This document shows, in pieces, positions 8,694-10,506 of a stretch of 64,000 nt of DNA. Source of the stretch: an uncultured Clostridia bacterium. Its GTDB lineage: Bacteria; Bacillota; Clostridia; Oscillospirales; Ruminococcaceae. The notes below the pieces were generated by a model. The model worked only from the letters and a program-made list of their open reading frames with translations. It had not been told where the DNA came from and made no database searches. The stretch covers positions 1 to 64,000 of the forward strand of contig CANQKY010000002.1 of assembly GCA_947624575.1 (NCBI GenBank). Reading direction: 5' to 3'. How positions within the stretch are numbered: position 1 is the stretch's first letter; every line of letters begins with the position of its first letter. The position numbers and the translations under genes were made by a program.

Positions 8694-10394
8694 TTATTCC
8701 GATCCGGAAACAAAAATCGTGATCTCTTTACTGCCCTTAAAATCAAAGGTGGTCTCGTTTGCCAGCAGTCTTTCGCTTTCCTCGTCTAAGCGGATCACCT
8801 GACCTGCCGGAACCGTATCGGACGCTTCGTAGGAAACGGTATAGTGCCTGCTGTCGATCCCCAGTGCTTCAAGCAGCGCGATATAATCCCCCTCGTCCAT
8901 ATCCCGATAATCCGGCAGATAGACCTCCGAGCTGCCGCGGCTCACCGTAAGGGTCAGCCGCAAAACCGGCTTGAAGCGGCGCCCGACCAGCTCGCTTTGC
9001 TTACAGACCACACCCGCTTCAAAATCATTGCTGTAATCGGTGACCCAGGTGATGTCAAACAGCCCGTCATAGGCAGGATTGTTCTGTATCTCCTCCTGCG
9101 TTTTCCCCAGCAGATTGGGCATCGAGCGCATCGTCACCTCCGATTCGTCCTCTGCCGGAGCACTGGACGCCGCAAGCTCCCAGGAAGGGGTACTTTCTAA
9201 AGCGGCGGAGCTCACCTCCTGCGAGCTGCTGCCAAAGGGAAGCAAGGTGGAAATATCGGGTCGGAAAAGCAGATAGTAGCCGATCCCCACCGCCAAAATC
9301 AGTACCACGACCGAAATGCAGGCGATACCCAATGCGAGCCGAAGATTGGAATGCTTTTTTGGTTTATCGGGTTTTTCTATCCGAACCGGTATCTCGGCAG
9401 TATGCACTGTTTTTTCGGACGGCGTGCGGATCGCTCCCCCCTCGCCCGCAAGCCCGTCGATCAACACCCGCACCGATTGCGGGCGGTTTTCCGGTTGTAT
9501 CTGCAAGCCGGTCATGATGGTAGCCGCCACGGTGGAGGGGAGATCAGGCAGCAGCTTTCGGATCGGCTCCAGCGTATCCTGCCGAACCCGCTCCGCCGCC
9601 GAAGGGGGCGTGATACCGGTCAGCATACGGTAGATCAGCGCACAGACGGCATAGATGTCCGTCCACGGTCCGTGCCAGCTCGACACCAGATACTGCTCCG
9701 GCGCGGCATAACCGGCATAAAGCTGCGGATTCAGCTCGGTGCGGACAGCCCGAAGCGGACTGATGGCAAAGCCGTCCAGCTTACATTCGCCCTTGCGGTT
9801 GAGCCATACCGTCTGCGGGCTGATCCCCCGATGGTAGACACGCGCCGTATGCACCACGGCAAGCGCCTCCAAAATCGGCAGGATCATCTTTTTGACTGTC
9901 TCCCATGGCAGGCTTCCCTGCCGTTTTTGCAGATACTCCGAGAGCGGCACGCCCTCCACATACTCATAAACGGCATAGACGGTGCCGTTTTGCCGAAACA
10001 GCTCATACACCTGCACGACGGCATTGAAGGTGCGGAGCTTGGAGAGACAGAGGAACAGCTCGGCAAAATCGCTCATCAGTGCCTTATAATGCGCCTCTCT
10101 GCCGGGCAGGGGATTGACCTGCCGTCCGTCCTCCGCGCGACCGGAGAGAGTGGTCGGCAGATACTCCCGCACCGATACCGTGGCGTCGATTTTAAGATCG
10201 TAGGCGATATAGGTGATGCTTTCACTGTTGGCGCGCAGCACCCGCCCGATCAAATAACGCTGGTTTAAAATGGTGCGGGGCGGAAGATAATAGCCGGACG
10301 CCGCCTTTCCCTCCTGATAACCGCAATAGGGACACTTGTCGGCCGAGGCATCGTATTCCCGCATACAGTTAAGACATCTGCGCTGCTCGTCCAT
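8694..10394 (-). CDS. Zinc-ribbon / degenerate protein kinase / TM / PASTA-like protein (predicted pseudokinase)
   Basis: MDEQRRCLNCMREYDASADKCPYCGY zinc ribbon; kinase fold with VSVREYLP, HRGISPQTVWL, KLDGFAIS, YAAPEQY; TM LALGIACISVVVLILAVGIGYYLLF; C-terminal PASTA-like MPNLLGKTQEEIQ...YLPDYRDMDEGDYIALLEALGI. Confidence 0.85.
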   Translation of the reverse strand: MDEQRRCLNCMREYDASADKCPYCGYQEGKAASGYYLPPRTILNQRYLIGRVLRANSESITYIAYDLKIDATVSVREYLPTTLSGRAEDGRQVNPLPGREAHYKALMSDFAELFLCLSKLRTFNAVVQVYELFRQNGTVYAVYEYVEGVPLSEYLQKRQGSLPWETVKKMILPILEALAVVHTARVYHRGISPQTVWLNRKGECKLDGFAISPLRAVRTELNPQLYAGYAAPEQYLVSSWHGPWTDIYAVCALIYRMLTGITPPSAAERVRQDTLEPIRKLLPDLPSTVAATIMTGLQIQPENRPQSVRVLIDGLAGEGGAIRTPSEKTVHTAEIPVRIEKPDKPKKHSNLRLALGIACISVVVLILAVGIGYYLLFRPDISTLLPFGSSSQEVSSAALESTPSWELAASSAPAEDESEVTMRSMPNLLGKTQEEIQNNPAYDGLFDITWVTDYSNDFEAGVVCKQSELVGRRFKPVLRLTLTVSRGSSEVYLPDYRDMDEGDYIALLEALGIDSRHYTVSYEASDTVPAGQVIRLDEESERLLANETTFDFKGSKEITIFVSGSE

Positions 10395-10481
10395 CTGCGT
10401 CCCTCCTTTTCCTATATGCACATATAGTTATTATACTTCCGCCAAAACGGTTCGTCAAGAATCGTAACAGGGTTGTAACCG

Positions 10482-10506
10482 AAAAAAGCCTGCTCGAAAG
10501 CAGGCA
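10482..10506 (-). terminator. Rho-independent terminator downstream of his operon and repeat copy A
   Basis: Minus strand gcctgc-tttcga-gcaggc followed by T-run. Confidence 0.8.

Follow-up and report, generated by a model that had tools for sequence, protein, structure and literature searches.

The 64,000-nucleotide stretch of DNA analysed here (the window), from an uncultured Clostridia bacterium, carries at 8694..10394 a gene whose product is built like a membrane-bound cell-wall sensing kinase and has lost the catalytic motifs of one. The question raised by this locus is whether the protein is an active kinase, a decaying copy or a dead kinase kept for another role. The gene lies on the minus strand, as do all features given below, runs from an ATG at 10394 to a stop codon at 8694 and encodes 566 aa. 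A ribosome-binding site that is a good match (AAGGAGGG, about 10408-10401) precedes the ATG.

The original prediction of a membrane-tethered zinc-ribbon protein with a PASTA-like ectodomain was borne out by Pfam, the transmembrane prediction and conserved cysteines, and the ectodomain consists of two true PASTA repeats. The C4 zinc ribbon (aa 7-24, CLNCM...CPYC, with C7, C10, C21 and C24; 10323..10376) is followed by a kinase-fold domain (aa 44-318; 9441..10265) recognized by Pfam (PF00069, 66.6 bits against a cut-off of 31.7), AlphaFold2 and Foldseek. A transmembrane helix (aa 351-377; 9264..9344) separates the kinase part from PASTA repeat 1 (aa 423-487; 8934..9128; Pfam, AlphaFold2 and ectodomain-profile alignment) and PASTA repeat 2 (aa 488-566; 8697..8933; PF03793 match at 491-536 and AlphaFold2). 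The PF03793 score was 36.5 bits against a cut-off of 23.2, and the family profile aligns with the PASTA ectodomain structures solved for PknB and for Stk1-type kinases of S. aureus. Five Lys/Arg residues before the helix and none after it place the kinase side inside. The AlphaFold2 model, built on a 30-sequence family alignment, had a mean pLDDT of 85; kinase-domain blocks were mostly above 90, and only the linker (319-348) and the stalk (382-419) were of low confidence. The best solved structural relative in Foldseek was the type VI secretion kinase PpkA (TM 0.82 by target length), with PknB/Stk1 kinases next; PpkA was also the best solved kinase by sequence (9.5e-25). The kinase-transmembrane-PASTA order of PASTA Ser/Thr kinases is present, and the score for the corresponding model NF033483 was 135.6 against a 450-bit cut-off.

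An alignment with 13 intact zinc-ribbon kinases, drawn from the host genome and related ones, set the register of the catalytic motifs. At the position of the Gly-rich loop (aa 54-59, RANSES, 10218..10235; family consensus NGEG/DGEG) the protein reads LRANSES in place of LGxGGFG, the first two P-loop glycines being replaced and acidic residue 58 occupying the place of the aromatic residue at the P-loop tip. The VAIK motif has become VSVR, with Ala changed to Ser74 and Lys to Arg76 (10167..10169), and VSVREYLP corresponds to the (A)IKEYxP β3 strand of PpkA-like kinases (AIK-EYMP in PpkA). Leu113 (10056..10058) replaces the αC Glu. The catalytic loop is HRGISPQT (9810..9833), in which Gly190 stands for the HRD Asp and Thr195 for the catalytic Asn, and the former DFG is now GFA (Gly208-Phe209-Ala210, 9765..9773); Asp207 is the residue preceding the former DFG and lies outside the motif itself. 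All the motifs described earlier as degraded were thus seen, with the register of the VAIK motif and the reading of the DFG motif as LDGFA amended as above. The expectation that motifs of the fold, such as APEQY, are kept held in the same alignment: APEQY is retained at the end of the activation segment (9690..9704; Glu233 in 115/115 orthologues), together with H188, R189, G228, E233 of the APE motif, D246 in helix F and R304. The activation-loop segment comprises 17-19 residues, without a long insertion. A pseudokinase is defined as a kinase homologue in which at least one of the β3 Lys, HRD Asp and DFG Asp is missing (PMC12599244); here all three are replaced relative to the intact paralogues (R76, G190 and G208), and by this sequence definition the 566-aa protein is a pseudokinase.

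Residue counts from 116 orthologues, each with the members aligned at that position as denominator, extended the losses to the whole family. The HRD Asp was found in 0/115 (Gly in 90, Ala in 23, Leu in 1 and His in 1) and the αC Glu in 0/114 (Leu in 91, Met in 9 and Val in 8; L/M/V in 108/114). The VAIK Ala persists in 1/113, its substitutes including L, V, T, W, R and E, and the β3 position holds Arg in 70/113 and Lys in 39/113 members, that is, a basic residue in 109/113. The DFG Asp occurs in 12/115, the family having mostly GF[CAS]. Further members from the unbiased genome search lack the HRD Asp without exception, with HLG and HGG in the related family f24. The helix-F Asp (D246) is present in 115/115 orthologues and, like H188, the APE Glu and R304, is invariant or nearly so; because these residues of the fold are kept while the catalytic ones are gone, the fold appears to have been conserved and the chemistry not. 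The four zinc-ribbon cysteines occur in 110/111 orthologues having that region, and the zinc ribbon, kinase fold, single transmembrane helix and PASTA part in 30/30 orthologues aligned at full length. Residues rare or absent in the intact paralogues are specific to the family, namely N56, E58, L113, G190, G208, R215 (97%), T216, K104 (96%) and W164 (89%), and these constraints concentrate in the pocket and the activation segment. A subgroup (e.g., L174, L176, L178, L180 and L181) keeps the DFG Asp (as in LIDFQI) and is without the HRD Asp, αC Glu and Gly loop; the 12 counted orthologues with a DFG Asp likewise lack these three features.

In a tree computed with the catalytic columns removed, 62/62 sampled family members were separated from the 13 intact paralogues by a branch with 100/100 support. 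The pseudokinase family is thereby shown, at the level of sequence, to have a single origin beside the intact zinc-ribbon (KEYxP) kinase lineage. By descent, as judged from REYLP, APEQY, GPWTDIY and the fold, the pseudokinase belongs to the KEYxP/PpkA-like kinases, an assignment of lineage and not of activity. It has the zinc ribbon, KEYxP-type β3 strand, GYxPxEQY and GPWTDxY in common with the intact Clostridia zinc-ribbon kinases, which, unlike it, keep the Gly loop, β3 Lys, αC Glu, HRD, Asn and DFG, are often in tandem and, in the host genome, lie in a cluster together with genes for FHA and PP2C proteins. PpkA (PDB 5hnv, 5x1r) likewise has KEYMP and a GPWTDIYA helix but is catalytically complete, and its solved part is without a zinc ribbon or PASTA. 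Against the nearest orthologue (77% identical), ω was 0.165 overall and, by part, 0.14 for the N-lobe, 0.12 for the C-lobe, 0.10 for each of PASTA1 and PASTA2 and 0.40-0.49 for the stalk and transmembrane helix. These codon-based estimates show purifying selection on every folded domain.

The order-level search covered 197 well-completed genomes, with a full-length match above 420 bits taken as presence; presence and absence were scored from genome searches, the wide pattern scan being left aside since its patterns favour the pseudokinase family. The host's family (f1) had the gene in 21/21 genomes, f24 in 19/20 and f23 in 1/1, and the best matches in the other families of the order reached at most 363 bits. 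The single f24 exception (G168) has a 160-aa N-terminal piece, explained by a contig break or truncation. Among 243 genomes of the class, no match above 420 bits was obtained in any other family, and 11/11 of the next-best matches examined keep the Lys, Glu, HRD, Asn and DFG. By these searches the gene is near-universal in two related families of Oscillospirales-type Clostridia, and probably in a third; named records carrying it include Ruminococcus flavefaciens, Ruthenibacterium, Anaerotruncus and Massilioclostridium. The family appears old and vertically inherited. In a relative with a 1.2-Mb, 100%-complete genome (G004), the orthologue (L078 8548-9690) has lost the ectodomain and stops right after the transmembrane helix with tandem stop codons, while the PrkC of the same genome keeps its PASTA repeats. 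The retention of the zinc ribbon, pseudokinase domain and transmembrane helix in this orthologue suggests that the cytoplasmic part has a role of its own.

Intact kinases occur in the window's genome as well, and intact and dead paralogues can be compared side by side within the same genomes. As had been supposed, the gene lies apart from the prkC-prpC pair: an intact prpC-prkC pair was located on another contig (C23), after rsmB and rlmN. A search for intact paralogues and phosphatases, also proposed earlier, found in addition contig C16 (L015 3616-11990), which carries two intact zinc-ribbon kinases, an FHA protein, two PP2C phosphatases and a zinc-ribbon DUF805 protein; one of the kinases has a transmembrane helix and four PASTA repeats, and the other a weak match to a solute-binding-protein-like ectodomain. 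In single-sequence searches, PrkC was detected in nearly all f1 genomes searched and intact zinc-ribbon kinases above 100 bits in 5/37 genomes. Two closely similar kinases in frames of 1775 and 1943 aa were also observed on contig C7 (L004 19642-20478 and L005 25033-25866); their frames carry repeated 'DVSGFNTSNVTDMSxMF' units, and the contig has several FHA and PP2C genes.

The gene adjoins the his operon, as originally noted, and this position carries no meaning. An intrinsic-terminator-like hairpin closing the operon (10488..10505; 0.4 expected by chance) and a sigma-70-like promoter (TTGACG-N17-TATAAT, 11/12, 10430..10458; 0.3 expected by chance) lie in between, and relatives often have yebC instead; a functional link to the his operon was rejected on these grounds. 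The his neighbour was seen only in the window's genome; the contig of a congener, too short on that side, shares the HAD gene. The pseudokinase gene is followed downstream at short intervals by same-strand genes for a HAD hydrolase, recD2, comF, an MreB/Mbl protein, trmB and a patatin. In ten genomes of three families yebC lies upstream on the same strand, adjacent in nine and about 4 kb away in one, and several of these have rsmF and obgE before the pseudokinase gene and an ssb/rpsF block after it. The yebC-adjacent location looks like the ancestral site; the gene directly follows yebC at L064, L072, L073, L074, L077, L080, L061 and L065. No conserved operon partner was found among the relatives' loci compared: neighbours vary, and those common to some relatives are housekeeping or local (yebC, rsmF, obgE, ssb/rpsF, an AMP-ligase and a sugar isomerase-like protein). 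Gene order thus does not tie the pseudokinase genetically to PrkC, to any phosphatase or to enzymes of the cell wall.

Several explanations of these data were weighed. A decaying pseudogene or private degenerate copy, which degraded motifs alone would allow, is refuted by the single origin, open frames and near-universal presence, and the losses common to 116 orthologues together with the ω of 0.165 exclude chance or recent decay. It is very improbable that an active kinase was misread through its motif register, with catalytic residues relocated as in WNK. The β3 Lys in 39/113 members, the DFG Asp in 12/115 and K104, conserved in 96%, would suit such an enzyme, but the catalytic base is missing in 115/115; the original prediction had allowed for catalytic residues placed elsewhere, and the columns flanking the motifs align to the intact paralogues, with no new conserved Asp in the catalytic loop. 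An atypical enzyme whose remodelled pocket keeps or has gained AMPylation, glutamylation or another phosphotransfer is unlikely. Its precedents are SelO and SidJ (PMC12599244), the pocket residues N56, E58, G190, G208, R215 and K104 are themselves conserved, and the β3 residue is basic in 109/113 orthologues; against it, no member has an acid at the HRD position and most have none at DFG, the Ala of VAIK, a residue that packs against adenine, has given way to L, V, T, W, R or E, and the acidic residue of the P-loop tip would be expected to repel phosphates. We infer from the alignment columns that the pseudokinase performs no phosphotransfer.

A non-catalytic protein might still work without any kinase. 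EssB/YukC, which recruits secretion parts, offers an analogy for a kinase-independent scaffold. In such a cell-wall scaffold, the pseudokinase domain and zinc ribbon would recruit division or elongation proteins, and PASTA would only place the protein at the septum or growing wall. Consistent with this, the pseudokinase gene has no kinase or phosphatase gene linked to it, it heads, in the window, a same-strand run from its own promoter with the HAD, recD2, comF and MreB/Mbl genes, and PASTA domains are adequate for the localisation of PknB (PMC6428115). The MreB neighbour is not, however, common to relatives, and no other observation singles out a particular wall protein, which leaves this explanation doubtful.

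A conserved dead kinase of single origin in nearly every complete genome of two families is most likely a non-enzymatic receptor or scaffold, and the 'signalling scaffold' of the original prediction appears to be the best-supported class of mechanism. We consider it rather likely that the protein is a non-catalytic peptidoglycan receptor or scaffold, probably acting by forming N-lobe dimers with PrkC or with a second copy of itself, with a predicted P-loop salt bridge plugging the ATP site. The PASTA part would bind or localise to peptidoglycan or lipid II, muropeptide binding being assumed from PASTA homology, and a signal would run via the single transmembrane helix to a closed pseudokinase domain. 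An acid at position 58 occurs in 111/112 members and is paired with a basic residue 76 in 108/112; this pairing of alignment columns suggests a swapped salt bridge closing the ATP site, in which E/D58 at the P-loop tip would pair with β3 R/K76, replacing the lost αC Glu. Conserved surfaces, namely the N-lobe back, the activation segment with R215/T216 and the zinc ribbon, may dock a partner. The likeliest partner would be PrkC or a second copy of the pseudokinase, in an N-lobe back-to-back contact as in PknB and the MviN pseudokinase. The identity of the partner is a guess; should the partner be a kinase, PrkC is favoured, since it occurs in nearly all of these genomes and few of them have an intact zinc-ribbon kinase.

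Residues R46 and D/E131, which we take to correspond to the R10-D76 back-to-back contact of PknB, form a basic-acidic pair in 98/112 members; position 69, presumably PknB L33, is not kept hydrophobic in the family. The 46/131 pair is also common among the intact paralogues, so that dimerisation is plausible and not family-specific; PknB D76 and L33 mutant structures were among the Foldseek matches. Function does not always depend on PASTA repeats, as in C. difficile PrkC (PMC9674922). A more specific version is put forward tentatively: the protein may be a near-universal co-receptor with a PrkC-type ectodomain that gates PrkC (or the wall machinery) allosterically via heterodimers, its ATP site closed by the swapped P-loop salt bridge. 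If true, this would make it a bacterial counterpart of receptor pseudokinases. Entire families of common gut Clostridia carry this pseudokinase as a fixed component, with the ectodomain type of the main cell-wall sensing kinase; its fixed presence, single origin and shared ectodomain open the role of a dead kinase in bacterial wall signalling to direct test. An automatic pipeline that labelled it an active PASTA kinase would be wrong here.

A literature search of open-access papers found no description of a zinc-ribbon or Ruminococcus PASTA pseudokinase. Comparison with 7 of the 42 published bSTK families, by their descriptions in a review (PMC12599244), set the pseudokinase family apart from all seven, and it is apparently undescribed. 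Active PrkC/Stk1/PknB kinases have the same kinase-transmembrane-PASTA order but no zinc ribbon. The DYD and ActPs2 families have the change of β3 Lys to Arg and a membrane location in common with the pseudokinase, and DYD is also without the αC Glu and occurs in Firmicutes; DYD differs in retaining HRD- and/or DFG-type acids and in its DYD motif (GFA here, mostly GF[CAS] in the family), and ActPs2 in its HRN and long activation-loop insertion (HRG and a 17-19-residue segment here). The HRG, single transmembrane helix, zinc ribbon and PASTA part separate the protein from DLHK (HRD kept, no transmembrane helix), CP1 (no transmembrane helix, COG3899), GLW (GLW motif) and ActPs1 (actinobacterial, often with a PQQ domain), the last judged by taxon and architecture only. 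The MviN pseudokinase of mycobacteria (ActPs3) is likewise a bacterial membrane pseudokinase, with cell-wall control and a back-to-back dimer (PMC12599244), but it is an actinobacterial fusion to a lipid II flippase with VALT and a lost HRD loop, and no zinc ribbon or PASTA is reported for it, whereas the present protein has VSVR, HRG and no flippase part. Bacterial pseudokinases are largely uncharacterised (PMC12599244); for control of the cell wall, the closest precedent that has been worked out is the MviN pseudokinase (PMC12599244, PMC11898655).
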